Assembly: GCA_029250605.1 (NCBI GenBank)
Contig: JAQXEZ010000006.1
Location: forward strand, 137,535-201,534
DNA length: 64,000 nucleotides
DNA from: Candidatus Thalassarchaeaceae archaeon
GTDB lineage: Archaea > Thermoplasmatota > Poseidoniia > Poseidoniales > Thalassarchaeaceae
Reading direction: 5' to 3'
Shown here one piece after another: positions 10,022 through 55,107 of the stretch. A program made the translations under genes and the position numbers. Below the pieces are notes generated by a model that saw only the letters and a program-made list of their open reading frames with translations, was not told where the DNA came from and made no database searches. Each line of letters starts with the position of its first letter. Position 1 is the first letter of the stretch.

Positions 10022-13000
10022 TCATTTGATTCTGATCTTCTTCGAGCGGATGCTGGAGATGCCCCGGCCCTTCCAACCCGCCATCCTGTATCCCATTATT
10101 CCTATGAATGATATCGAGAGGATTATGATGCCCCAATTCTCGGTGGTGAAAGGCCTGAATGGATCTCTTGACCATTTCTCGTTACCAAGGACGCCGTCCT
10201 CCAGATCCGGAATGCCGTCGTTGTCGTCGTCAGGGTCTAACAAGTCGGGAATGTCGTCACCATCGAAGTCAGGGGCATTCCCATCATAAAAGCCAATACT
10301 GGCAGAGTCCAGCTCGTCCACGATAGTATCGTCTCCGATGAGGGTCTGTATCGGGCATCCAAGATCGTTGCCGGGTAAGCTCAGGAGTTCGATGTAGTCC
10401 ACATTGCTGGGATTTATCCCGGGTTCGAATTGGCACTCATCAGCGTTATTCCCAACGCCATCTCGATCGCTGTCCATCCACTCCGTCGGGTCGTCGGGGA
10501 ACGCATCTGAGTTCGGACCTTGGTCCGAATGCCCGTCACCGTCGGAGTCGGACCATCTCAACCAATCTAGGGGAAATGCATCGGTTCCGTCCACACCATC
10601 GCTGTTCATGGTACAAGGCACAGGATTGAGCCATCCATCACCATCACAGTCGGTATCTACGTTATTCCCTATGCTGTCTCCATCGGTGTCATCCGTCTCG
10701 TTGGCATCGAATGGGAAGGCATCACCCTTGGCAGAAGCGAAGCAGTCGGGGATGCCGTCACCATCCTGGCTAGGGCCGCTGTTCGATGGTGGGATTAGGT
10801 CGGGCCTCCAGTATGTCGAGTCATCGCATCTGCCGTCATTGTCGTCATCTGCGTCGGTATTGTCGCCAATGCCATCACCATCGGCATCCGACCATTCGTC
10901 CCCGTCATTCGGGAAGACGTCGAAGATGTCTCTCCTACCGTCACCGTCGTCGTCCTCATCGGCGTTGTCGCCAATGCCATCGCCGTCTTTGTCCTCCCAC
11001 TCACCTTGGTCCATGGGAAATGGGTCATCGGTGTCATTTACACCGTCATTGTCGTCATCCACGTCGATGCTGTCTGGAATCCTGTCTCCATCCGAGTCAG
11101 CGGCGACGTCTGGATCCAACCAGTCGTAATCCTCTACGTTCGGAACACCGTCATTGTCTGCATCGGTGTCGAACGCATCTGGTATTCCATCTCCATCGAA
11201 GTCAGAGAAGCACATGTCAAAGAAAGTGGATGCCTCCTCCAACGTGGATTTGCCGCTAGGGCAGGGAGTCTGGGAAGCGGACTGTGACTCCGAGACGTAG
11301 TACCCCCTCGATGCAGCCGTGCATGTGGGTTGCCCCCTCAGGCTGGAGTAGTAACCAGCAACACATCCCATCTGGGATGTCTGACCAGACTGGGGGACCA
11401 TGAACCCCCTGTCAGCTAGTATGCACGTCGTCTGGGATGTGTTTGGCTGGTACGATCCCGGTGCACACGGCAACTGCTCCTTTGAGCCATGACCCAGGTC
11501 GACCGTAGTGGGGTTGTCCCTATGGGAAGACGTCCCGTCACCTATCTGCCCCGCTTCGTTAGCCCCCCAGCAAAGCAGACTCGCATCTTCGAGGATGACG
11601 CAGGAATGCCTCAGTCCCACAGATACCGATGTTGCGTTTTCATTCAGGCTGACTATTTCCGGTACCGTGCTCCCTACCTGCGAACCATCACCCAGCTGCC
11701 CGTTGCTGTTGTCCCCCCAGCAGGCAATCTCTCCGGAGTCGAAGAGGGCGCAGCTGTGGAATAGGCCAACTTCGACAGATGTCAGTAATTGGTTGGTGCT
11801 AAGTGGCACTGCGATAGGGGAATTGGAGTTACTATTGCCTCCGTTACCCAATTGCCCGTATGCGTTGTAGCCCCAGCAGAACATGGACCCATCGTTCACA
11901 CCCAGACAGGTATGCATCGCTCCGGCATCAAGTGAAACCGCGCTACTGTTACTTGGAATCGAGATTTCCACTGGAGTCGCTCTATCGGTATTTGTTCCAT
12001 CGCCAATTTGCCCGTTCCAGTTGTCTCCCCAGCACCTCACCGTTCTGTCTGACATTATTGCACAGGTGTGATATGAGCCAGTGGAGATAGATAGAGCGTC
12101 TTTGCCGCCCATTTCCGTGGGTATCGGGCTTGAACTATCGATAGAAGTCCCATCTCCCAGCTGCCCGTTGCTATTCTGGCCCCAACACTTGACGCTGTGA
12201 TCACTCAGGATCACGCAGGTGTGAGACTCTCCGGATGAGATCCCGAGCGCACTCATTCCTTGCCCGAGTTCGACTGGGACTGGCGACGTTCTCTCTATGG
12301 TGGTCCCGTCCCCCAGTTGCCCGAATTCATTGGATCCCCAGCAGCGGACTGAACCGTCATCGAAAACTGAGCATGTGTGGTATGATCCGGCAGAGATCTC
12401 CACTGCTCTCCTCCCGAGTGGCATGGATGACTTCTCAGGCTCTAAGCTTGGTGATCTAGAGCCATCTCCCAGCTGACCGTTGGTGTTGTCCCCCCAGCAG
12501 CTGACCGAACCATCATCGAGGATCGCACAGGAGTGCGATGCTCCAGATGACATCTGGAGAAGAACTGGGACGCTATGACCCTCATCAGCCCATTTGCAAG
12601 CGGTTACCGAGTTCTGTCCAGGTAGATCGTTGTACTTGCCCGCTGGACACGGAGTCCCCTCAGTGGCTCCCGGATCAGGGACGTAGTATCCGGGCTCTGC
12701 GTCATCGCATGAAGTCTGACCAGAGAGCCTCTGGAACTCCCCGTCGTTGCATGGCTGTTCTGAGGTTGCCCCATCAGAGTCCACATAGTGACCAGGACTC
12801 GCCGGAGTCATCACCGTGTTACCGGTTCCACTGACGTAATATCCAGGAGTAGCCTGCCTGCACGTGAATCTGCCGTATGAACCAGAGAGGCAGTCAGCTG
12901 CTACGGTGGGATTGCTGTCATCACTGTCCTCGCTGGAGGGAAAACCATCGCCATCGCCATCCGACCCAATTCCGACTTCGAAGATGTTCAGATTCCCATT

Positions 13001-16000
13001 ATTGTTCCAATCCCTCTCAGACGAGCTGATGTAACTCCACCTGGAGATCGCGAATCCGGATGGTTCGTTTCCAAGAGAGAGTGCTCCCGGATTACTCGCC
13101 CCACCCCAGCACCTAGCCAAGTCATTGCTACCGACTACACATGTGTAAGAGCCTCCGGATGATATTGAGAGAGCACCTAGGTTCTGGCCTAAATCAATAG
13201 CAGCAGGAGAAGAGATCTGTTCAGAGTTGCTTCCATCACCCACTTGGCCGTCGGCACCCCCTCCCCAGCAATGCAGTGAGTCACTGGAGTCAACGGCACA
13301 CGTGTGATCCCGTCCAGAGTCTATAGAAATGGCACTTGCGAGCGTGATTCCAACCGTTGCAGCATCGTTTTGTTGGTTGGTTCCGCCATCACCAAGCTGC
13401 CCCTTGCTGTTATCTCCCCAGCATTTCACATTGTTTCCCTGCAGTAGGGAGCAGGTATGGGAGCTCCCCGCCGATACGGCCACGGCATTACTACCCACAG
13501 TTACAGTGGAGGGGCTGTTCGAGGACGTTGTCGACCCAATCCCGAGCTGCCCGTTCCCGTTAGACCCCCAGCATTTCAGAGCCCAACTCTCGGTAATTGC
13601 GCATGTGTGACTTCCTCCTGCCGAGACTGCTAGTACCTTTTCTCCTAGGGTCACTGATACGGGGGTGCTCCTATCGGTGTTCGTCCCGTCCCCAATCTGA
13701 CCATCTGTATTCCTCCCCCAGCATTGCAGGCTCGCATCGTCCATTATCGCACACGTGTGCCAGTCCCCTGAGGAAATTTGCACGGGTACTCCAGTCAGAC
13801 TTGTCCCTACGGGGGAAATTGAATGAGAGTTAGTACCATCGCCAAGTTGGCCGTAGTTGTTCCTGCCCCAGCACTGCAACTCCCCATTGTCCAAGATGGA
13901 GCAAGTGTGATCTTTTCCTGAGCTGATCGAAGTTGCGGTTCTGGCTGCATCGAGGCTAACTTCCGTCATCGTCAGCCTATCTGTCGTGGTCCCGTCCCCC
14001 AGTTGCCCGAATTCATTGGATCCCCAGCATTGCAGGCTTGCATCGTCAAGAATCGCACAGAGGTGGTCGTCTCCGATGGTCATTGTAGTTTCTGTGAAGA
14101 TCGAGCCGGATTGGAAACCAGGTTCGTTATACTCGTCTGAAACCGGATGGCGCATGTCGGTTAGGACACCATCGCTAGCCGCTAAGTAGTACTTCTGTGA
14201 CCCATCTATCACATTCGCCCCTGTTACGATGACCTCCCAGTCCCCAGCATCAGGGGAATCGACGGAAATGCCGACTAGGTTGTTGACATCATCATTGGTA
14301 TACGCCTGCAGAACTCCAGTAGGGCTCTTGAGGTAAATGTCCAAGTCATTCCTGAGTTGAGTGCCTGCAGACGGGGAATTCTCCACTTCATTCCAAGAAA
14401 GAACCACCCTCAGACTGGTAATACCGGAGTCTGGAACGCTCAATTTGAAAGAGTGGCTATCCGAAGTCGCGATTTCGATACCTTCGGAGAACCCGCTACC
14501 CATGGCTCTCTCGAGATCCACTCTCCCCCACCCTTCGTGACTGTTGGGAGCCTTTTCTACGGCACCGTTTTGCCCGTCTCCACCGGAGCTGTATTGGCCT
14601 TCCATATCATGCGCAGAAGCACTCAGAATAGCCTTCACGAGAGCAGACTCCGGACAGTTGTCACTAGCAGAGTTGTATGCAAGGTTGCAATCGTATCCAT
14701 GGGCATTCAGGTGCTCGATTACTAGTGCAACACTACCAGCAGTGATGGGGGTAGCCATGGAGGTCCCACGTTTCACGGTGTAGTAGTCCCCTAGGTCTGT
14801 ACTCACATCCCTGAGGGAAGTTTTTGTCGAGTGGATCCAAGTACCGGGTGCTACGATGTCTGGCTTGATTCGACCATCGCTAGTAGGTCCCCTGTTGGAG
14901 AAACCTGCCATACCCTCTGAGTTATCTCCCTCCAGATCGTTCTTGATAGGAGTCCCATACCAATCGCAATTTCCACATACGCTGAAGTAACTTCGTGAAT
15001 GCATTGTCAGAGTGTTCCTAACGTTCTCCGAAGCCCCGACGGATATGATGTTCTTAGCCGTCGCTTGCCTATTCAGGGCCCCTAGGTTAATCTCACCATC
15101 TTGCCCACTGGGGCAATTAGTAGTCTGCCATCCGAACGAGGCGTAGGTGCAATCTCTGCCGTCATTGCCCATCGCAAATAGGATAGTAAGATCCTGATAA
15201 TTATTCGCTGCTGCATCCAACTCCATCGTATCCGATGAGTAGTAAGCCCAGCATGAGGGTGAGTTAGTGTAAGTAGGGTTGTTTTGCGTCGGCGCGCATG
15301 CATCAGGCCCCGTCCCCCAGGAGTTGGTGTGCACCCTTGCTCCAGCCGCATAAGCCTCAGCATACGCGTCTTCGAAATCCGGAATGGCAAGTGAGCCGTC
15401 ATTGCTGCCATAACCAACTGCTTGCATGAAAAGGTAGGCCCCAGGAGCCGTTCCGCTGTTGTCCTCTCCTTGGGGGGAGTTGCTCCCATCGCCCAGTACT
15501 GAACCAGCAACATGTGTGCCATGCCCGTTGTAGTCATTAGGGCCACCAGTTCCATCGGGGCACGACCCACATCCGTTGTATGAAACAACCCCCATTATCC
15601 TGCCAGCGAAGTCTGCGTGAATTCCCGAGTTCAAGGAATTGCAATTGCCGAGGCTACTGCATGCCAAAGCAGTGTCTAGGCCCGAGTCCATCACTGCAAC
15701 GATAACCCCATCCCCGGTAACTGCTCCACCATGACTCATCATGTTCGATGATTCCCCCACCCAATTCGCACCGATTATCTCAGAAGCCTCCTGGTTGTCG
15801 AACTCTGGAGAATAAATAGGCTCGACCCACTCGACGAATGGCTGTTCGGATAGCATTCCGATTTCCTTTGAACCAACCAGCACATCTGCGAACCTTTCGA
15901 GCCTATAGTCACTCAATTCGACCCCAGTCTTCAGCAAGTCAGTAATGTGTCCCGAGCCGGAGAGAAGGACTCGGACTAGGTACTTCTCACTCCCTTCATC

Positions 16001-16552
16001 TGCGTTATCTTGGCTTTCTCCTTGCAGAATCGGAAACGCATCCGGGGCAATCTTGTCTATATCGGCTAGACGAAATGCCCCAATAACCCCTGCATCATGA
16101 AGGGTTGCAGGGCTCAGACGAGGAACATCGCAATGGAATCCCTGAGGGGCGTAGAAGGTTCTGCATTCCATGCCCATTTCTTCGAGTTCGTTTTTCCAGT
16201 CCGAGGGAATGGGGTAATCGTGACCCAGTGCATGCCAACCTGAGACAAAAGACTCCCCAGTTACCTGCTCCCATTCGTGTATTGGAACATAACTTGCTGT
16301 CCTGTAGTATAGCGCGGCCTTGCCCGTATTCCCCTCGTCCCAATTCCAACCATGCGAGGGGTCCTCGAAGTTCACTGCACTTGTGTCAAATGGCATGAAG
16401 CTCGGAACCTCAATAGATTCCTTCGATTCGGGCATTTCTTCCAGTTCTGGGGGACCTACGTCAAATTGGCTGATCGACAGAATGGTGGGGAGAATCATGA
16501 CTGCCACCAGTGCCAGAGACAGGCGTGACCTCACCGCGTTGACACTGGACAT
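10022..16552 (-). CDS. Giant secreted subtilase with two RCC1 propellers, Cys-rich modules, Ca-binding repeats and C-terminal anchor
   Basis: 2176 residues from the ATG at 16552. An in-frame ATG at 16615 is possible, but 16552 gives a clean signal peptide and lies 28 nt from a TATA-like box. The S8 domain has catalytic Asp289 (VMDSGLD), His344 (GHGTHVAG) and Ser598 (GTSMATP). Then come seven RCC1-type repeats (~820-1150; HTCAI...CWG...GQLGDGT), a Cys-rich module (~1217-1327), seven more RCC1 repeats (~1332-1687), a second Cys-rich module, and Asp-rich thrombospondin-type-3 calcium repeats (~1787-2117). One C-terminal helix and a basic tail complete it. It probably works as a cell-surface protease for degrading external protein. 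Confidence 0.88.
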   Translation of the reverse strand: MSSVNAVRSRLSLALVAVMILPTILSISQFDVGPPELEEMPESKESIEVPSFMPFDTSAVNFEDPSHGWNWDEGNTGKAALYYRTASYVPIHEWEQVTGESFVSGWHALGHDYPIPSDWKNELEEMGMECRTFYAPQGFHCDVPRLSPATLHDAGVIGAFRLADIDKIAPDAFPILQGESQDNADEGSEKYLVRVLLSGSGHITDLLKTGVELSDYRLERFADVLVGSKEIGMLSEQPFVEWVEPIYSPEFDNQEASEIIGANWVGESSNMMSHGGAVTGDGVIVAVMDSGLDTALACSSLGNCNSLNSGIHADFAGRIMGVVSYNGCGSCPDGTGGPNDYNGHGTHVAGSVLGDGSNSPQGEDNSGTAPGAYLFMQAVGYGSNDGSLAIPDFEDAYAEAYAAGARVHTNSWGTGPDACAPTQNNPTYTNSPSCWAYYSSDTMELDAAANNYQDLTILFAMGNDGRDCTYASFGWQTTNCPSGQDGEINLGALNRQATAKNIISVGASENVRNTLTMHSRSYFSVCGNCDWYGTPIKNDLEGDNSEGMAGFSNRGPTSDGRIKPDIVAPGTWIHSTKTSLRDVSTDLGDYYTVKRGTSMATPITAGSVALVIEHLNAHGYDCNLAYNSASDNCPESALVKAILSASAHDMEGQYSSGGDGQNGAVEKAPNSHEGWGRVDLERAMGSGFSEGIEIATSDSHSFKLSVPDSGITSLRVVLSWNEVENSPSAGTQLRNDLDIYLKSPTGVLQAYTNDDVNNLVGISVDSPDAGDWEVIVTGANVIDGSQKYYLAASDGVLTDMRHPVSDEYNEPGFQSGSIFTETTMTIGDDHLCAILDDASLQCWGSNEFGQLGDGTTTDRLTMTEVSLDAARTATSISSGKDHTCSILDNGELQCWGRNNYGQLGDGTNSHSISPVGTSLTGVPVQISSGDWHTCAIMDDASLQCWGRNTDGQIGDGTNTDRSTPVSVTLGEKVLAVSAGGSHTCAITESWALKCWGSNGNGQLGIGSTTSSNSPSTVTVGSNAVAVSAGSSHTCSLLQGNNVKCWGDNSKGQLGDGGTNQQNDAATVGITLASAISIDSGRDHTCAVDSSDSLHCWGGGADGQVGDGSNSEQISSPAAIDLGQNLGALSISSGGSYTCVVGSNDLARCWGGASNPGALSLGNEPSGFAISRWSYISSSERDWNNNGNLNIFEVGIGSDGDGDGFPSSEDSDDSNPTVAADCLSGSYGRFTCRQATPGYYVSGTGNTVMTPASPGHYVDSDGATSEQPCNDGEFQRLSGQTSCDDAEPGYYVPDPGATEGTPCPAGKYNDLPGQNSVTACKWADEGHSVPVLLQMSSGASHSCAILDDGSVSCWGDNTNGQLGDGSRSPSLEPEKSSMPLGRRAVEISAGSYHTCSVFDDGSVRCWGSNEFGQLGDGTTIERTSPVPVELGQGMSALGISSGESHTCVILSDHSVKCWGQNSNGQLGDGTSIDSSSPIPTEMGGKDALSISTGSYHTCAIMSDRTVRCWGDNWNGQIGDGTNTDRATPVEISIPSNSSAVSLDAGAMHTCLGVNDGSMFCWGYNAYGQLGNGGNSNSNSPIAVPLSTNQLLTSVEVGLFHSCALFDSGEIACWGDNSNGQLGDGSQVGSTVPEIVSLNENATSVSVGLRHSCVILEDASLLCWGANEAGQIGDGTSSHRDNPTTVDLGHGSKEQLPCAPGSYQPNTSQTTCILADRGFMVPQSGQTSQMGCVAGYYSSLRGQPTCTAASRGYYVSESQSASQTPCPSGKSTLEEASTFFDMCFSDFDGDGIPDAFDTDADNDGVPNVEDYDWLDPDVAADSDGDRIPDSIDVDDDNDGVNDTDDPFPMDQGEWEDKDGDGIGDNADEDDDGDGRRDIFDVFPNDGDEWSDADGDGIGDNTDADDDNDGRCDDSTYWRPDLIPPSNSGPSQDGDGIPDCFASAKGDAFPFDANETDDTDGDSIGNNVDTDCDGDGWLNPVPCTMNSDGVDGTDAFPLDWLRWSDSDGDGHSDQGPNSDAFPDDPTEWMDSDRDGVGNNADECQFEPGINPSNVDYIELLSLPGNDLGCPIQTLIGDDTIVDELDSASIGFYDGNAPDFDGDDIPDLLDPDDDNDGIPDLEDGVLGNEKWSRDPFRPFTTENWGIIILSISFIGIMGYRMAGWKGRGISSIRSKKIRIK
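12300..12343. repeat. 44-bp direct repeat, copy 1 (RCC1 block 2)
   Basis: Identical over 44 bp to 13986-14029, at an in-frame distance of 1686 bp (562 codons). It encodes the CWGSNEFGQLGDGTT portion of one RCC1 repeat in the C-terminal propeller. Confidence 0.85.
13986..14029. repeat. 44-bp direct repeat, copy 2 (RCC1 block 1)
   Basis: Second copy of the 44-bp identical segment at 12300-12343, lying in the first repeat of the N-terminal RCC1 block. Nucleotide identity between diverged repeats suggests recent conversion or recombination between the two propellers. Confidence 0.85.
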
Positions 16553-16556
16553 ACTT

Positions 16557-16583
16557 CTCCTACGTAGTAGGAGGACATTAAAA
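16557..16583 (-). promoter_or_regulatory. Promoter and perfect inverted repeat ahead of the giant protease
   Basis: On the minus strand a TATA-like TTTTAAT (16577-16583) is centred 28 nt from the ATG at 16552, so the transcript is probably leaderless. Between the box and the start lies a perfect inverted repeat, CTCCTAC (16557-16563), GTA spacer, GTAGGAG (16567-16573). A site at this place could act as an operator blocking RNA polymerase; that role is inferred. Confidence 0.5.
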
Positions 16584-16708
16584 TTGCCTCCGCACTTAAT
16601 TTCCGAACTCTGCAATAATCAATCTCCAACCAGATATCTAGTTCACAATATTACTAGTTGCATTCCGTGAAAAATATCACATACGCCCGACCCGCTCGTC
16701 TGCTTCCA

Positions 16709-47923: not shown

Positions 47924-48319
47924 TCAACCAGACATCGCTGCGACTGCGCCAACCGCGGATCTAGCATGTGGCTCTAGCCTAGGCTCAATGTGTTCAGGCT
48001 CGGCACCAGGTCCAATTATTCCCAGTCCAATGGGTTTGTTGTGCTTGATTTGCAATTCAATTATCGACATCGTCACAGAATTTCCCATTACAAGCCCATG
48101 ATCGGTCTCGCCACGTTCAATAATTCCCAAAACGATGGCTCCTTGGATTTCTTCACTCTGGAGCATCCTGTCAAGAGCGAGGGGCGCCTCCATAGAACCA
48201 GGGACCCACACAATATCCCGAACTAGCAAATTCTTTGATTCCGCCTCATCTTTGGCGAATTCGAGCATCTTCTCTACTTCTTCGCGATGAAATGAGCCAC
48301 AAACAATTCCAAGATTCAT
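47924..48319 (-). CDS. ribH: 6,7-dimethyl-8-ribityllumazine synthase
   Basis: 131 residues. The N-terminal GIVCGSFHREEVEKML, the VPGSMEAPLALDRML segment, GAIVLGIIERGETDHG and the C-terminal PIGLGIIGPGAEPEH follow the RibH order. It condenses 5-amino-6-ribitylamino-uracil with dihydroxybutanone phosphate to make lumazine. Start ATG overlaps the riboflavin synthase stop (ATGA), so the two are coupled. Last gene of the four-gene riboflavin operon; its stop lies 8 bp from the convergent GYD gene. Confidence 0.9.
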   Translation of the reverse strand: MNLGIVCGSFHREEVEKMLEFAKDEAESKNLLVRDIVWVPGSMEAPLALDRMLQSEEIQGAIVLGIIERGETDHGLVMGNSVTMSIIELQIKHNKPIGLGIIGPGAEPEHIEPRLEPHARSAVGAVAAMSG

Positions 48320-48915
48320 AATTTACCCATCCTGAGCATCGTCTCCACAACTGCTTGGGTCCTCGAGTCTATCTCAATGTTTACTCTGTCTCCTACGGCC
48401 TTCTTGTCCAAGGTGGTAATTCTCAGAGTTTCTGGAATAATGTGTAAAATGAAACCCCCTTCATCGCATTTCCCCACAGTAAGAGACATCCCATCCACGG
48501 CGATGAACCCCTTTTCTAAGATGAATGGAGCACATCCATCTGGCATGGAAATTCTAAGGTCAAATCCCTCGCCAACCATTCTTGACTCCAATATTTCAGC
48601 CGTCCCCATTACATGCCCAGATAGGATATGCCCCCCCAATTCATCACCGAGCCTCATCGACCTCTCGACATTCAGGAGGTCACCCTCCTTTCTGTCAGCC
48701 AGCGTTGTCCTCTCCAGGGTCTCTGTAATTGCATCAAAGGTCACCTGCCCCGAGTCCATGCCAATCACAGTCATGCACACTCCATCCAGAGATACGCTTG
48801 CCCCCGTTTCAAGTCCCTCTGCGAAATCTCCTAGGTCCACTGTGAATGTGCAAATACCATCTCCTTCGACAATTTTCAGAATGGGTGCCGTTCCGGCTAC
48901 AATTCCTGTAAACAT
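48316..48915 (-). CDS. ribE: Riboflavin synthase, bacterial/eukaryotic alpha type
   Basis: 199 residues from ATG 48915 (TTG 48921 also open; a GAGGAGG sequence upstream supports 48915). Two lumazine-binding repeats are visible: MFTGIVAGTAPILKI...GASVSLDGVCMTV and GDELGGHILSGHV...FIAVDGMSLTV. It dismutates two lumazines to riboflavin. This trimeric enzyme is the bacterial and eukaryotic form; many archaea instead use an unrelated RibC. It lies between RibL and RibH in the operon. Confidence 0.93.
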   Translation of the reverse strand: MFTGIVAGTAPILKIVEGDGICTFTVDLGDFAEGLETGASVSLDGVCMTVIGMDSGQVTFDAITETLERTTLADRKEGDLLNVERSMRLGDELGGHILSGHVMGTAEILESRMVGEGFDLRISMPDGCAPFILEKGFIAVDGMSLTVGKCDEGGFILHIIPETLRITTLDKKAVGDRVNIEIDSRTQAVVETMLRMGKL

Positions 48916-48917
48916 GC

Positions 48918-49379
48918 TCAATCCTCCTCATAGGGGCCACCTTCTGTGTTGGGCCACAAATCTAGAATCCTTGCAATAATCTTCCTAGTTCCGTCTAGAT
49001 CATCCGACAGACCCTCGACTCGAGTCACCCCCACGTCTTCGAAACCCGCATCGTCGAGACCAGACCTAATTGCGTCAATCGAGTGCTTCTGGTCATAGCC
49101 AAGAGCAATAAGATCAGGCTTTACTTCCCTCAGTATCTCGAAAATCGGAACTCCAGGGGGATTCCCAATAATTGCCTTGTCCACGGGCTTCAGTCCTTCC
49201 ACCATCCTCCTTCTCAAATCTTGACCAGTTACTGGCTCGTGCTTCTGCTTCCTCACGGTCTCATCATGGGCAATTACGACAACAAGCTCGTCACCAAGCG
49301 ATTTTGCTTGTTCAACGTAGTGCAAATGGCCTGCATGGAGGAGGTCGAATATTCCAACCGCCATCACTCTGACCATCAT
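48918..49379 (-). CDS. ribL: FAD synthase RibL, archaeal cytidylyltransferase type
   Basis: 153 residues (ATG 49379, or 49364 which begins MAVGIFDLL). The nucleotidyltransferase motif GIFDLLHAGHLHYVEQAK with HAGH, the VRKQKHEPV segment and the KPDLIALGYDQKHS C-terminal element match archaeal RibL, which adenylates FMN to FAD. The related family member is glycerol-3-phosphate cytidylyltransferase, but the setting among riboflavin genes favours RibL. Its 3' end sits two bases before the ribE ATG. Confidence 0.85.
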   Translation of the reverse strand: MMVRVMAVGIFDLLHAGHLHYVEQAKSLGDELVVVIAHDETVRKQKHEPVTGQDLRRRMVEGLKPVDKAIIGNPPGVPIFEILREVKPDLIALGYDQKHSIDAIRSGLDDAGFEDVGVTRVEGLSDDLDGTRKIIARILDLWPNTEGGPYEED

Positions 49380-49402
49380 GGAGACCCCGTTGACATCTTC
49401 GC

Positions 49403-50134
49403 CTAATCCTTTTCATCGAAAGCAGTGGAAATCTGCTCCCCGGTTACCATGGGAATGCCATATCTTGCCGCATATTCTCTTGCTCCGTCCAAGGACAATG
49501 CACCATCTCCATCTGGCTCCAGCATCTCGGCCCCTATTGTACAGGGAACCAGTCCTGCCAATCTGGCTATCGACACGGCTAGTTCGGTGTGACCCTGCCT
49601 TGTCTTGAGCCCTCCGGGAGACTCCCTACACACGGGGATATGTCCAGGGGTCCTGAATTCCTTGCCCAGTTGAGAGAGTGCGAAGTCATCCCTGGCGCCA
49701 CTATCAATCAATTCTCCAGACAGTTCTCCGAACCTTCTTGTCGTCAGAGCTCTGTCCCTATCGGTAATCCCGGTATACGTCTCTCTATGATTCAAAGAAA
49801 GAGTGAAGGCCGATCTAGAATCATACTGTAGGTCGTTTGTAACTAGATGCTCAAGTACTGGATTCTCCCCAATCAAGGCATCGTGTGAATGGATGTCCTG
49901 TAGCCAAGGGAGCCCAAACATCTCTCCAATTTCATTCCCTATTGCTAGGAAGAGTAGACCTCCACAGTCTTTCCTCAGTCTCCTAATTACTTCCGGAGTA
50001 GCTGATGTTGCAGGCCATAGTAAGTCCGTCTCCTTCTCTCTGAAGTCCGAATCAAAGATCATCACTGGATTTCCTGACTTGAATGCGGAAATTACCCTAG
50101 CAACTCCGTCATCCATGTCAGGCGGAGGGGCCAT
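49403..50134 (-). CDS. ribB: 3,4-dihydroxy-2-butanone 4-phosphate synthase
   Basis: 243 residues. The acidic metal-binding loop MIFDSDFREKETDLLWPA, SLNHRETYTGITDRDRAL, EFRTPGHIPVC and the TRQGHTELAVSIARLAGL motif are complete for RibB. It converts ribulose 5-phosphate to the four-carbon unit of the lumazine ring. It is the first gene of the riboflavin operon, 23 bp before ribL. No GTP cyclohydrolase or reductase gene is in the window. Confidence 0.92.
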   Translation of the reverse strand: MAPPPDMDDGVARVISAFKSGNPVMIFDSDFREKETDLLWPATSATPEVIRRLRKDCGGLLFLAIGNEIGEMFGLPWLQDIHSHDALIGENPVLEHLVTNDLQYDSRSAFTLSLNHRETYTGITDRDRALTTRRFGELSGELIDSGARDDFALSQLGKEFRTPGHIPVCRESPGGLKTRQGHTELAVSIARLAGLVPCTIGAEMLEPDGDGALSLDGAREYAARYGIPMVTGEQISTAFDEKD

Positions 50135-50191: not shown

Positions 50192-51067
50192 ATGATGGCA
50201 GGAGCCAACGCATCTTCGGCACCTGTCCGAGTCGACCTTGCTGGCGGTTGGACCGACGTCGGACCATATCCTAGCGACTTCGGAGGAGAGGTAGTGAACT
50301 TCGCAATTAACCTCAGAGTGTTTGCTCGGACCGACTCAGACTCCGACAATACCAAGGCAGACTTTGAGTTTCCAGTGCATCGGGGTTCTGGATTGGGAAC
50401 TAGTTCAGCCATGAATGTCGCCTTGTCTGCGCTTACTGCCCCCGAGAAAATAGAGAATCCCGAGGCACTCGCAGAGGAAGCCTTTGTTCTCGAATCGGAA
50501 TCCGGGAATTATTGTGGGAGGCAAGATCAGTGGGCCTCAGCAATCGGGGGTTTCAACCACTTGCTGTTCATCGGAGATTCGGTCGAGAGAATGCCATTTG
50601 AGCCAATGAGGTCATCAATGAATTGGTTGAAGAAGCATCTCGTCATCTCATTCTCGGGGAAAAGCAGGAATTCCGGGGAAATGCAAGAATCAGTGTGGAC
50701 TCGATACTCAAACGGAGAACAGGAAGTAATCAATGGCCTACACAAGATTCGGGGTGCAGCCAGGGTGATGGCAAACGGGCTCCAGCAAGACCGCCGAGAT
50801 ATGGTGGTTGATTCATTGAAGGAAATCTGCGAGGGCGTAGACTTGATTGATCGGTCAATCCACGATCCCTTCCGCAATGTCGTGGAACCACTCATCGACA
50901 GTGGTTCAGCCGTAGCTTGGAAGGCATTGGGGGCTGGTGGAGGGGGGTGTTCAGCGATTCTGTGCTCCCCCACAGGCCGGGAAGAAGTAACACAGGCAAT
51001 AGAAAGAGAGGATTGGGAGATAATTGATTGGGATTTTGAAGACAAAGGAGTCATGCTTCACAATTGA
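50192..51067 (+). CDS. GHMP-family sugar kinase (HddA/galactokinase-like)
   Basis: 291 residues. SAPVRVDLAGGWTDVGPYP at the N-terminus, the ATP loop HRGSGLGTSSAMNVAL and the C-terminal GAGGGGCSAILC identify a GHMP kinase of the D-glycero-D-manno-heptose-7-phosphate kinase or fucokinase-like group. It phosphorylates a sugar or sugar phosphate at C1. The YCGRQDQWASAIGGFN segment is typical of that group. Divergently transcribed from ribB with a 57-bp gap; the sugar is unknown. Confidence 0.82.
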   Translation: MMAGANASSAPVRVDLAGGWTDVGPYPSDFGGEVVNFAINLRVFARTDSDSDNTKADFEFPVHRGSGLGTSSAMNVALSALTAPEKIENPEALAEEAFVLESESGNYCGRQDQWASAIGGFNHLLFIGDSVERMPFEPMRSSMNWLKKHLVISFSGKSRNSGEMQESVWTRYSNGEQEVINGLHKIRGAARVMANGLQQDRRDMVVDSLKEICEGVDLIDRSIHDPFRNVVEPLIDSGSAVAWKALGAGGGGCSAILCSPTGREEVTQAIEREDWEIIDWDFEDKGVMLHN

Positions 51068-51110: not shown

Positions 51111-54100
51111 ATGGCCGACCGCCGTCATATGTTCGCCTCTCTCGCCTTATTGGTTCTAATCGCACCTTTGGCATCCTCGTCCATCTCCTTCGAATCTCAA
51201 CGGCAGGGGGGATTAGATACAAATGGCGACTGGATTCCTAGCGCAGAGTCGGACATCCACTGGAATTGGTGGACTCATTGGAGCCGAGACAAGGATTCCA
51301 ACTCCCTTGATGACAGGCTGGAATGGTTGATAGAGCAACCAGAGCAAACTCAGAGAGACTGGTGGAAGAGGGCGCCAGAGGGAAGTGCTCGAATTTTCGT
51401 CGACTATGACCACCATCCGACAGACGCCGACGTCTCAGCACTAGAGTCACTTGGGGTGGAAGTTACCTTCAGATTCGGATACTTGAACACGGTTTCTGGT
51501 ACATCGCCTATTGCGCCAATCGTAGACGAGGAGGGCATCAGATCCCTGAATGGTGTGGTTATGATCGAGGATCTAGGTCTCGCCGAGGTCAACATGCACG
51601 AGGCAGTCCCCAACATGGGCGTCGACACAGTTTGGGAAGACTTCGGACTCGATGGGACAGGTTCTGTGATCGCCATTCTGGACACAGGTGTACGTGGTGA
51701 TCACGAAGGACTCAACGATATGGACGACGACCCATTTACTTGCATCGATGATCCTCCCGAGCCAGATCCGCTGGATCCTGAACCACAGCCTATTCCAGCC
51801 GATTGCGACCCCAAGATAATCGCATTCTTCGATGCGGTCTTCACGGACGAGGAGCAAGACCCATCCACATCCTATGACTCAGGAACTCACGGCAGCCACG
51901 TCGCAGGCATTGCAGCTGGCTCCGGAGGAGGCCAGACCGACCCCGTAACGGGTCTGAGGTATGTTGGAGCGGCTCCCGGGGCTCATCTGATCAACATACT
52001 CGGTTGCTGCGATGGCGATATTGAGGATGTGATGCAAGGGGCCCAGTGGGCAATTGACAACAAGGAAAAGTACGGAATCGACATCGTCACTTCTTCCTTG
52101 GGGGAACAGCAATTCGAGGTCCATGTGGACAACGATGGGAGCTCGGCATGGAGCCGCCAGATGGACATGGTCGTGGAAGCCGGAATCATCACGACCCTAT
52201 CGGCAGGGAACGAATTCGGAGGGGCAACCCTAGCCGGTTGTAACACGATAGATAGCCCTGGAGATGCGCAATTACCAGTTACAGTGGCCAGTTTGGACAA
52301 GGACCTAGGACTTGCAATATACAGCAGCAGGGGGTACACTTCAGATTTCAGGGTAAAACCGGACGTTGCAACAATAGGCTCTGACATAATGGCTCCCGAC
52401 GCAGCAACGCAGGACGGGTACACCAGCAAGTCAGGAACGAGTATGGCCACCCCTCTGATGGCAGGAATCGCTGCATTGATGGTTCAAGCCAATCCTGATC
52501 TGACTCCTGAAGAATTCAAGTCAATAATTGCAGCACATTCGATAGAGAGGGACGTCCAGCTCCTTGATGACCCGGGATTCAACGATTGTAGCATTCTTGA
52601 GACCAGACCAGACAATGAGTTTGGATATGGCCAGGCGGACCCCACAGCCTTTGTAGAGGCCGCAGGGAGTATCGATCGTTCACTCAATGTCTCAATGGAA
52701 ATGGAGACCATGCAAGAAGTCGGGAATGAGAGCTACATCAATGGCCACTCATCAGGAGCAGGGATTGATCAGCCAACAACTAGGGTTGAGATTCGAGTCG
52801 GAGGTGGGGATTGGAAGGAGGCAGAGGACGACTCTCCGTTGGAAGACTGGTCAATATGGAGCATTCGACTAGATCCTCACAAGGAGTCGGGAAACTCTAC
52901 CGTTTTCGCCAGACTTGTCGTCGATGATGAACATATTTCCCCAGTAGACGCTCGAAGGGTAATCCTACTCGATATGCCAGCAGTAGCTGAAGAGTCCGAA
53001 GACTCGGGCTCTTCTAGAATTCTGGTTATCGCAGTAGCTCTGATGTTTGCCTTAATGCTCAGTTACGTTGTTTTCCACAGGGAACGCCTGATTGAAGAGT
53101 GGTTCGATGGGGAGGCCCTAACCGACAATAGGCTCAGAAGAGTGGTTTCCCTGTGCGTCCTATACTTCGCTCAAGGCCTCCCATGGGGATTCGCCGTAGT
53201 TGCATTCGTAGCATATTTGGCCGAAAATGGCTTCACTGCAGGAGAAACCGGGACTCTTCTGGCCACGATTGCTCTTCCCTGGACCTTCAAATGGATTTGG
53301 GGGCCTGTAATTGATACACTCAACATCCCGATATATGGAAAACGAAGGCTTTGGGTTCTTTTTTCCCAGTTTGGAATGGCAGTGACCATTGGAATAATCC
53401 TCTTTGTTCCCAACTTGATAGAGCAGATCGACATTGTGATATCGCTCATGTTCATCCACAACATCTTCGCTTCCCTACAGGATGTCAGTACTGACGCTCT
53501 AGCAGTAGACGTCTTGCAAGATCACGAGGTTTCGAAGGTGAATGGATATATGTTCGCATCAAAGAGGGCCGGGATGATAGTTGGAGGGGCAGTACTTGGC
53601 GGTTTGGTCAGCATCATTGGTATCAGGGGGATGCTCGCTTTCCAGCTCCCCCTACTCCTCCTGATTATGGTGCTACCCATGTACCTTTACGAGAAACCGG
53701 GAACTAGGCTATTCCCTTGGTCCACCCGAACTTCCGAGTCTACTGGGTCAGAGAAAGATAGCCTCTTCGAGGAGTCCTATGAAGTGGATGAGAAGCTCTA
53801 CTGGGATGATCCGGAGGAATCCAGGTGGTGGGCTGCTGTAGCAGTGGGTAAGGCGACATTCGAAGAGAAAATCTCCGTTCCAGCATTTATCACGATAATC
53901 TCGATCTTTATCTTCGTGTCAGGCCTTTTGTTCGCCATCGTTTCAGTGGATCTCACTGTGCCATTCTACTCAAAGGCCAAGATAGTCGCATTCGGAGGCT
54001 TAGTCCTCGCAGTATTTGTAGCGTTTTTCGAAAGACATTATGGATCCGGCTCACGCAATGACGGGGATACTTCTTTACCCAAGCTAACCAATCCATTCTC

Positions 54101-54857
54101 TTTGTTGCCCCAATCCTCCATGAGGACTCTTGCTCAGACCAGTTTCAACTTAACCAAGGCATTCCATCTGAAGTCTTCATTCCTTCTGATTTTCTGCTGT
54201 CTTCTTACTGAAATGTATTACTTCCTTGACCCCATTATCATTGACATATTGGTTGTACAGTCTGGTTGGGGGGATGCAAAGTACAGCTTGATCGTGGGCG
54301 GGGGCGGTATCCTAGCAACCATGTTTGGTCAAATCTCGGGCGGTTTCCTCGGGGAAAAATATGGCGTAAGGAGAATGGGAATGATTGGATTCACCTGCCT
54401 CGCCATATGCAATGGCATGCTAGCCGTACTGGAACCACTCTGGACAAACACCCCTGTCATGGTAATGTACGTTTTAATCAAAGGCTTCGTAACAGGCGTC
54501 GCCTTCATCGCCGTGGTTGCTGTGTGCATGAAAATGACATGGAGTAAGGTTGGTGGGACGCAATTCACTGCATATATGTCGATGTTCAACCTAGGGGGCG
54601 TGATAGCACTCTCCAAGACAGGGCAGGTTTTGGAATTCTTTGACAACGACGTCATCCCGGCAATCTACACAGGTGCGGCCCTCACGATGATTGCTGTGGT
54701 TTTCTTGATTTTCATTGACCCCGAGGAGTGTAACAGGGTGCTGGAGAACAAATCCAACAATGGAGAAATCATTGATGCCAAAATCTTGGATGCCGATTTG
54801 GGAGAGTCCACTTGGTGGGAAGAGGAAGGAGGCGGCGATTCTGTCACAGCTGCATGA
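51111..54857 (+). CDS. Subtilase (S8) fused to an AmpG-like MFS transporter
   Basis: 1248 residues in one uninterrupted frame. Residues 1-25 form a signal peptide or first helix. The S8 domain has Asp191 (AILDTGVRG), His260 (GTHGSHVAG) and Ser444 (SGTSMATP). After an Asp/Glu-rich spacer, a helix at ~637-657 leads into an MFS domain (~675-1215) with VLYFAQGLPWGFAVV, LPWTFKWIWGPVID and DVSTDALAVDVL, all AmpG-like. The MFS halves are separated by a ~100-residue cytosolic loop. The arrangement puts the protease outside and the permease in the membrane, suggesting coupled peptide generation and uptake. Glutaredoxin overlaps the 3' end. Confidence 0.85.
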   Translation: MADRRHMFASLALLVLIAPLASSSISFESQRQGGLDTNGDWIPSAESDIHWNWWTHWSRDKDSNSLDDRLEWLIEQPEQTQRDWWKRAPEGSARIFVDYDHHPTDADVSALESLGVEVTFRFGYLNTVSGTSPIAPIVDEEGIRSLNGVVMIEDLGLAEVNMHEAVPNMGVDTVWEDFGLDGTGSVIAILDTGVRGDHEGLNDMDDDPFTCIDDPPEPDPLDPEPQPIPADCDPKIIAFFDAVFTDEEQDPSTSYDSGTHGSHVAGIAAGSGGGQTDPVTGLRYVGAAPGAHLINILGCCDGDIEDVMQGAQWAIDNKEKYGIDIVTSSLGEQQFEVHVDNDGSSAWSRQMDMVVEAGIITTLSAGNEFGGATLAGCNTIDSPGDAQLPVTVASLDKDLGLAIYSSRGYTSDFRVKPDVATIGSDIMAPDAATQDGYTSKSGTSMATPLMAGIAALMVQANPDLTPEEFKSIIAAHSIERDVQLLDDPGFNDCSILETRPDNEFGYGQADPTAFVEAAGSIDRSLNVSMEMETMQEVGNESYINGHSSGAGIDQPTTRVEIRVGGGDWKEAEDDSPLEDWSIWSIRLDPHKESGNSTVFARLVVDDEHISPVDARRVILLDMPAVAEESEDSGSSRILVIAVALMFALMLSYVVFHRERLIEEWFDGEALTDNRLRRVVSLCVLYFAQGLPWGFAVVAFVAYLAENGFTAGETGTLLATIALPWTFKWIWGPVIDTLNIPIYGKRRLWVLFSQFGMAVTIGIILFVPNLIEQIDIVISLMFIHNIFASLQDVSTDALAVDVLQDHEVSKVNGYMFASKRAGMIVGGAVLGGLVSIIGIRGMLAFQLPLLLLIMVLPMYLYEKPGTRLFPWSTRTSESTGSEKDSLFEESYEVDEKLYWDDPEESRWWAAVAVGKATFEEKISVPAFITIISIFIFVSGLLFAIVSVDLTVPFYSKAKIVAFGGLVLAVFVAFFERHYGSGSRNDGDTSLPKLTNPFSLLPQSSMRTLAQTSFNLTKAFHLKSSFLLIFCCLLTEMYYFLDPIIIDILVVQSGWGDAKYSLIVGGGGILATMFGQISGGFLGEKYGVRRMGMIGFTCLAICNGMLAVLEPLWTNTPVMVMYVLIKGFVTGVAFIAVVAVCMKMTWSKVGGTQFTAYMSMFNLGGVIALSKTGQVLEFFDNDVIPAIYTGAALTMIAVVFLIFIDPEECNRVLENKSNNGEIIDAKILDADLGESTWWEEEGGGDSVTAA

Positions 54858-55107
54858 GATTATCGAGAAAGCAGATGAGGACTTCCTAGTCTTCACACAG
54901 ACGGTCTGCCCTTACTGTACTAGGGCATTCAGAATCCTTGATTCGAAGGGCCTGACTTATTCCGAAGTGAATCTAGACAACTTCGAGGGCCTCCGCAAGG
55001 AGGTTGTAATGGAGACTGGCCACAGGACAGTACCTGTGGTGTTCGATATGAGGGGCGAGGAACCCATTTTCGTCGGTGGCTCAGACCACCTAATGGAATA
55101 CCTCTAG
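54790..55107 (+). CDS. Glutaredoxin-like protein
   Basis: About 105 residues from ATG 54790, overlapping the MFS fusion by 68 bp. There is no later ATG before the domain, though a rare start near 54838 with a GGAGG ahead of it cannot be excluded. The glutaredoxin active site is VCPYCTRA with the cis-Pro TVPVVF and FVGGSDHLMEYL motifs. It reduces disulfides or glutathionylated-like mixed disulfides, with an unknown thiol donor. The stop shares a CTAG palindrome with the convergent lipoprotein stop. Confidence 0.85.
   Translation: MPIWESPLGGKRKEAAILSQLHEIIEKADEDFLVFTQTVCPYCTRAFRILDSKGLTYSEVNLDNFEGLRKEVVMETGHRTVPVVFDMRGEEPIFVGGSDHLMEYL

Follow-up and report, generated by a model that had tools for sequence, protein, structure and literature searches.

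Can a protease and the permease that takes up its products be built as one protein? This question is raised by an open reading frame (ORF) in a 64,000-nucleotide stretch (the window) of contig JAQXEZ010000006.1 from a Candidatus Thalassarchaeaceae archaeon (assembly GCA_029250605.1), which an earlier reading made without database searches (the sequence-only reading) had taken either for a subtilase joined to a transporter of the major facilitator superfamily (MFS), or for a misassembled fusion of two neighbouring genes. The protease-transporter fusion proves genuine and recurs in other genomes, and it belongs to a modular family in which different ectodomains are joined to an MFS transporter. 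Our preferred reading, to which we give a probability of roughly 0.4, is that the protein would act as a surface protease tethered to the permease importing its products. What can be seen in the sequence, as far as sequence can tell, is the single frame, the catalytic residues, the transporter core, the topology, the recurrence, and M28 in place of S8 in some relatives.

The ORF at 51111-54857 (+), within a host genome (G000) of 1.48 Mb in 20 contigs whose contig C4 holds the window at 137535-201534, starts with ATG, encodes 1248 amino acids and has no internal stops, as the sequence-only reading had stated. The order of its parts is signal peptide, S8 subtilase, one transmembrane (TM) anchor and MFS transporter, the latter delimited with an AlphaFold2 (AF2) model:

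51111..54857, +, whole fusion ORF, 1248 codons plus stop
51111..51188, +, signal peptide-like N-terminus, residues 1-26 (hydrophobic segment residues 6-29; boundary by eye)
51378..51590, +, probable I9-type prodomain, about residues 90-160 (placed from its position; no Pfam match)
51654..52631, +, Peptidase_S8 catalytic domain, residues 182-507 (Pfam; D191 at 51681, H260 at 51888, N367 at 52209, S444 at 52440)
52632..53000, +, post-protease ectodomain, residues 508-630 (interval between Pfam domains)
52791..53030, +, module exchange boundary, residues 561-640 (step in synonymous divergence, clear in 3 of 6 pairs)
53007..53075, +, single TM anchor, about residues 633-655 (AF2 helix 3-25 of the model; positive charges on its C-terminal side)
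53130..53684, +, N-terminal half of the MFS, TM1-6 (AF2 model; motif A D735/R745/R746, QDxxxDA motif at Q790)
53877..54044, +, extra two-helix hairpin in the interval between TM6 and TM7 (AF2 model)
54171..54710, +, C-terminal half of the MFS, TM7-12 (AF2 model)

The protease half matches Pfam Peptidase_S8 (PF00082) at residues 182-507 with E 4e-43 and 148.2 bits, against a gathering score of 21.8. Asp191, His260 and Ser444 do stand in subtilase order, and to this earlier observation we add the oxyanion Asn367; none of the four is missing from any homologue examined, whether fused (72 of 72) or stand-alone (11 of 11), which bears out the description of an active-looking subtilase, for which proteolytic activity may be inferred. 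Its closest sequence in the PDB is 3afg (E 2e-35), so that Tk-SP-like archaeal subtilisins are the nearest known likeness of this half; these we take to be secreted, soluble enzymes with no transporter attached. In the post-protease ectodomain, a similarity to CBM_6 lay under the cut-off and in two relatives only. The anchor helix (residues ~633-655) precedes TM1 of the MFS; of 145 family proteins, 143 follow the positive-inside rule at this helix and two are ties, and the S8 domain is therefore expected outside the cell. Ratios of nonsynonymous to synonymous divergence (Ka/Ks) were 0.04-0.06 for the S8 and 0.07-0.12 for the MFS half (three of five pairs each, the other pairs being saturated), and both halves look to be under selection as protein. 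A second, very large S8-like protein is encoded elsewhere in the window, where a 2197-amino-acid ORF at 10022-16615 (-) is partly similar to the subtilase domain.

Whether two neighbouring genes were joined by misassembly is answered by other genomes. Scanning contigs with an MFS alignment gave 156 confirmed stretches, the best 80 of which are our 80 named loci, with record titles such as Euryarchaeota, Poseidoniales, Thalassarchaeum and MGII. Among these best 80 of 156, S8 and MFS share one ORF at 59, far more than chance would give, the MFS has another N-terminus at 19, and two are truncated at contig ends; S8 as a separate ORF beside the MFS was found at none of the 80 (BLAST E 1e-20, ORFs of at least 200 amino acids). 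P0001 was matched in all 148 genomes of the family searched at E ≤ 0.001, partial matches included. The fusion extends to a second family of the class, f3, where all 12 loci that were fetched from genus g23 (11 genomes) carry it; 3 of 14 genomes of that genus gave no MFS match. Five loci bear isolate names of the AG- pattern, which we take to mark single-amplified genomes of single cells; two of them (L078, L114) are S8 fusions and three (L080, L081, L087) have another N-terminus. Because the same fusion recurs across these genomes, including the two AG-named ones and another family, misassembly is ruled out, its probability being close to nil. The sequence-only reading had proposed recurrence in other assemblies as the test of its fusion, and this was found; orthologues are not always two genes, although some genomes split them. 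Some genomes carry two S8-MFS fusion copies (G004, G013, G066; L149, L150, L099/L100).

The transporter half matches MFS_1 at residues 681-1166 (E 1.1e-28, 100.6 bits against a gathering score of 33.4), and BT1 and Acatn (PF13000) also exceed their gathering scores (31.9/23.7 and 41.1/22 bits, in the order Acatn/BT1). The best NCBIfam model is TIGR00901, the AmpG family, with 111.3 bits against a cut-off of 350, and all seven PDB entries matched by the family profile are AmpG or acetyl-CoA transporter 1. Residues 631-1248, modelled with AF2 (65 sequences, pLDDT 75, pTM 0.76), comprise the anchor helix, 12 MFS helices and the hairpin between TM6 and TM7, which the MFS of f2 type seem to be without, judging from split profile matches. 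Foldseek returned 336 matches at E ≤ 0.001, the top four being AmpG. Taken together, these comparisons indicate that the MFS half is of the AmpG/SLC33A1 (PAT) branch; the earlier assignment to an AmpG type thus stands as AmpG-like and falls as AmpG proper. The likeness to AmpG permeases (PDB 9j9z, 8zbb, 9c3f, 8zgz) lies in the best PDB profile matches, in the fold and in the place of the QDxxxDA motif, and the differences lie in the bit score and in the ectodomain and additional anchor helix of the window protein. SLC33A1 (acetyl-CoA transporter 1) is likened through Acatn and the PDB profile matches, and we know of no protease domain on it.

The setting also differs from that of AmpG. Murein transpeptidase (PF00905) and the AmpD-type amidase family Amidase_2 (PF01510) were each found in none of 28 genomes of the window's genus, three of them at least 90% complete; in control genomes PF01510 was matched in 6 of 14 and PF00905 in 10 of 14. 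For these two families the expectation of an organism without murein was borne out, and since both are missing, muropeptide recycling in this genus appears unlikely. Across 149 members (the 156 proteins of the census below minus seven, four without ectodomain and three partial), conservation reaches at least 97% at 32 MFS positions with polar, charged, aromatic or proline residues, whatever the ectodomain; these include D735, R745, R746, Q790, D791 and D795 of motif A and QDxxxDA. The latter motif falls, in an alignment made by eye, at the place of A129/Q131 in Pseudomonas aeruginosa AmpG, where A129T and A129D are reported to abolish function; for Q131 changes the table of that report has resistance kept, yet its abstract names Q131 too (PMC5154545). 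Any anchor would presumably serve an S8 domain, and the MFS half might then be a degenerate membrane anchor for the protease. We consider this very improbable: near-invariance of the 32 positions under any ectodomain argues that the MFS is more than a mere anchor, its Ka/Ks is low in the three unsaturated pairs, and a separate single anchor helix is present already.

The larger finding is modularity. MFS alignments were searched against genomes of the class and of a phylum sample, and from the loci fetched we classed 156 distinct proteins by their N-terminus, a census of fetched loci and not a random sample, with identical proteins merged. S8 domains were found in 74 (62 in the window's family, f1, and 12 in f3), an SPL beta domain in 29, a lipobox domain in 20, M28 in 13, cupredoxin in 12 and no ectodomain in three; five were unclassed (cut or unmatched; one, L169, is labelled as having none in the tree below). 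Here f2 is presumably Poseidoniaceae and f3 presumably Marine Group III. Two loci of f3 genus g25 (L194, L195) are among the unclassed and gave no S8 match, and two SPL fusions in the window's own genus (G122, G127) lie beyond the 156. In f2 there is another type of relative, of ~440-480 amino acids and without ectodomain. Pfam confirmed all three M28-MFS examples submitted to it (E 9.6e-20 to 5.2e-16), as well as the one plastocyanin-MFS example (E 7.9e-13). Likely M28 ligands His, Asp, Glu, Asp and His are kept in 13 of 13 fusions (for the Asp of HxD the count is 12, with one protein ambiguous), and the cupredoxin fusions keep His, Cys and Met in 12 of 12 (the second His in 11, the last being ambiguous), residues that we take to be the ligands of these domains. 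One anchored transporter of the Poseidoniia thus bears S8, M28, cupredoxin or other ectodomains.

That the Poseidoniia ectodomain-permeases as a whole are tethered degrade-and-import machines, with unrelated outer domains swapped on one PAT-type MFS, is a generalization which we put forward tentatively and regard as somewhat doubtful. The same slot holds ectodomains without a recognised enzyme, as would be expected if the ectodomain (cupredoxin, beta domain, or a subtilase used for binding) were a sensor or lid that gates the MFS; retention of the S8 tetrad in 72 of 72 and of the likely M28 ligands in 13 of 13 fusions speaks against such gating, which we hold to be quite improbable. SPL beta domains of f1 and f2 are homologous (hhalign probability 99.7), and homology of the lipobox ectodomain to SPL was unsupported (hhalign probability 0.2). 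Foldseek matches of the SPL domain to CBM-like (carbohydrate-binding module) folds were set aside because the AF2 pLDDT was only 44. A reciprocal swap of S8 and SPL was considered and rejected: stand-alone SPL proteins occur in S8-fused genomes, but SPL-fused genomes have them too. An FtsZ-like gene (named by eye) is followed directly, at L248:5442-7201 (G000:C19), by two tandem genes for secreted-looking homologues of the SPL ectodomain, whose C-termini carry PGF-like anchors, presumably PGF-CTERM. In the sample of 389 genomes from the wider phylum, the matches listed include five outside the class (E 1.5e-24 to 2e-27, open frames of 395-566 amino acids); an ectodomain fusion may yet occur elsewhere in the phylum. 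Three phage records had partial matches to the MFS half and 279 plasmid records to the whole protein, none of either covering 80%.

How the S8 fusion came about was traced in two quick trees with SH-aLRT support only and subject to a long-branch warning: an S8 tree of 63 rows, rooted on paralogues of 30-35% identity and leaving out rows at least 93% identical, and an MFS tree of 80 rows, rooted at its midpoint and leaving out L124, L195 and same-label rows at least 88% identical. In the S8 tree the f3 fusions fall outside f1, and the stand-alone S8 proteins of genus g5 and those of g6 take two separate places within the fused f1 clade. The MFS tree requires 12 label changes, joins the S8 types of f3 and f1 (support 98) and nests the SPL type of f1 in the S8 types. 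On the simplest reading, the S8 fusion would be old, and on two or more later occasions another domain would have taken the place of S8 on the transporter while S8 lived on elsewhere as a gene of its own; transfer of the S8 fusion between f1 and f3 is possible. A search of 28 genomes found S8 orthologues (at least 54% identity) in 18, of which 16 belong to f1 and two to f3; it found none in six genomes of f2, one of g9, one of g4, and G122 and G127, where the best S8 matches had 33-39% identity. Genomes of g5 carry a tandem pair of stand-alone S8 proteins (L042:65-4133; L043, L044, L132, L133, L138); in the fetched stretches that contain the SPL-MFS gene as well (L042-L044), the pair and that gene lie ~13-14 kb apart.

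Recombination has also acted within the genus. Between the window and L052 or L055, which show the same picture and are perhaps not independent, the synonymous difference per site is 0.47-0.88 for S8 blocks, 0.17-0.35 for MFS blocks and 0.50-0.65 for flanking genes; with L059 the pattern is reversed, with 0.22-0.39 over residues 81-560, 0.62-0.81 beyond 640 and 0.44-0.54 in the flanks. The step falls near residues 560-640, shortly ahead of the anchor; in the six block-wise comparisons, it is clear in L052, L055 and L059, weaker in L096, and missing in L058 and L053, which are near saturation. In G137 (L036, L096) S8 identity is 86% and MFS identity 46%. From these opposite steps and identities it follows that the halves move as modules within the genus.

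How, then, might the fusion work? A signal peptide would export the S8 domain, which one helix would anchor with its N-terminus outside and its C-terminus inside, the chain running on into the 12+2-helix transporter; at the membrane the protease would cut protein that is dissolved or bound to particles, and the permease on the same chain would import the released product (peptide or glycopeptide) before it is lost by diffusion. In favour of cleavage and import, two unrelated peptidase families (S8 and M28) are fused to one transporter family, and the nearest solved relative, AmpG, is an importer, with the transport core conserved. Published work describes Marine Group II archaea (MGII) as proteolytic heterotrophs that possess extracellular peptidases of the S8 and M28 families; one to four extracellular S8 are reported in all metagenome-assembled genomes of one study and M28 is common (PMC6864105, PMC6461757), and a subtilase is among the highly transcribed genes reported in PMC9723583. 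The direction of import, the substrate and the importance of tethering are what we infer beyond this.

Several observations weigh against this account. The cupredoxin and lipobox ectodomains are non-peptidases. Parts of g5 and g6 have S8 as a separate gene (11 stand-alone loci), the transporter of these split genomes bearing a beta-rich domain without a recognised enzyme, and G122 and G127 (76 and 74% complete) have the transporter and no S8 orthologue. Independent recombination of the halves counts against tight co-adaptation. The fold match is modest, with a TM-score to AmpG of ~0.5 when normalised by query length; fifth in the Foldseek ranking, closely behind AmpG, comes the drug exporter EfpA, with other MFS near, and the acetyl-CoA transporter is absent among the 50 Foldseek matches listed, a point of difference from SLC33A1. 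Finally, that PAT member is reported to export oxidised glutathione (PMC12889552). The exchanged ectodomains, the persistence, in part of g5 and g6, of an anchored S8 protein that stands alone, and the separate recombination of the halves would all suit a fusion that serves delivery, in which S8 and MFS are made together and act apart, the ectodomain slot being an export-and-anchor platform, the protease cutting itself off the anchor or hitting unrelated substrates and the MFS having a job of its own. Both recognised enzymes among the ectodomains are peptidases, however, and the S8 fusion has been retained in two families of the class; we regard delivery as a serious alternative, if an unlikely one.

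Free-living cells that digest polymers outside lose the products by diffusion. Should cleavage and import be coupled as proposed, a protease carried on its own importer would be a direct molecular answer to this loss in tiny pelagic cells, and, to our knowledge, the first hydrolase-importer fusion of MFS type. The exchange of modules furthermore offers natural experiments, in which the same transporter comes with S8, M28, cupredoxin or no recognised enzyme. Among the planktonic archaea of the surface ocean, MGII are reported to be the most abundant (PMC6461757). The words 'fusion' and 'major facilitator' had no occurrences in the main text of the MGII papers that were term-searched, and neither an S8-MFS nor an M28-MFS fusion was described in the titles and abstract openings searched, mostly outside subscription journals. 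The earlier statement that no case of protease-transporter coupling had been described is too strong, since the PCAT exporters of the ABC superfamily, which carry an N-terminal C39 protease, are a described case on the export side (PMC6363468). They resemble the fusion in having protease and transporter on one chain and differ from it in superfamily, protease and direction, the Pfam families of the window protein being only MFS-type and S8. In PCAT exporters the protease side is cytosolic.

Two genes adjoin the fusion:

50192..51067, +, GHMP-type kinase, directly upstream of the fusion (domain scan of neighbours)
54790..55107, +, glutaredoxin, downstream (PF00462, 1.3e-14)

The order GHMP kinase, fusion, glutaredoxin recurs, the kinase lying upstream on the same strand at 38 of 68 and the glutaredoxin downstream on the same strand at 59 of 70 S8-fusion loci with room. 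The glutaredoxin ORF is open from 54715, and since no ATG, GTG or TTG lies between the fusion stop and the domain, its start is probably inside the 3' end of the fusion. These neighbours could, as speculation, hint at a thiol or glycopeptide substrate. A thiol substrate would also suit an MFS that exports a peptide, glycopeptide or thiol compound for trimming by the outer protease, in the manner of PCAT, and the reported glutathione export by SLC33A1 agrees with this; AmpG, the nearest solved relative, imports, however, and a precursor gene was not recognised among the neighbours scanned, so that export and processing seems improbable.

M28 versions can occupy the locus of the S8 version. In G095 (f1, g9) and G338 (f2, g22) the M28-MFS gene adjoins a glutaredoxin and a homologue of the ORF at 55104 of the window, and in G095 an H+-pyrophosphatase is near too; all three flank the S8-MFS of the window. 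Glutaredoxin lies downstream of M28-MFS at 8 of 12 loci with room (six on the opposite strand), of SPL fusions at 18 of 28, and of lipobox and cupredoxin fusions at 0 of 15 and 0 of 10. In G122 and G127 the SPL version sits between the GHMP kinase and the 55104 homologue, and the neighbours of the f3 fusions differ from those in the window (three loci checked). Divergent from the fusion, at 47924-50134 (-), the window carries a riboflavin-type block with lumazine-binding, cytidylyltransferase-like and DHBP synthase genes.

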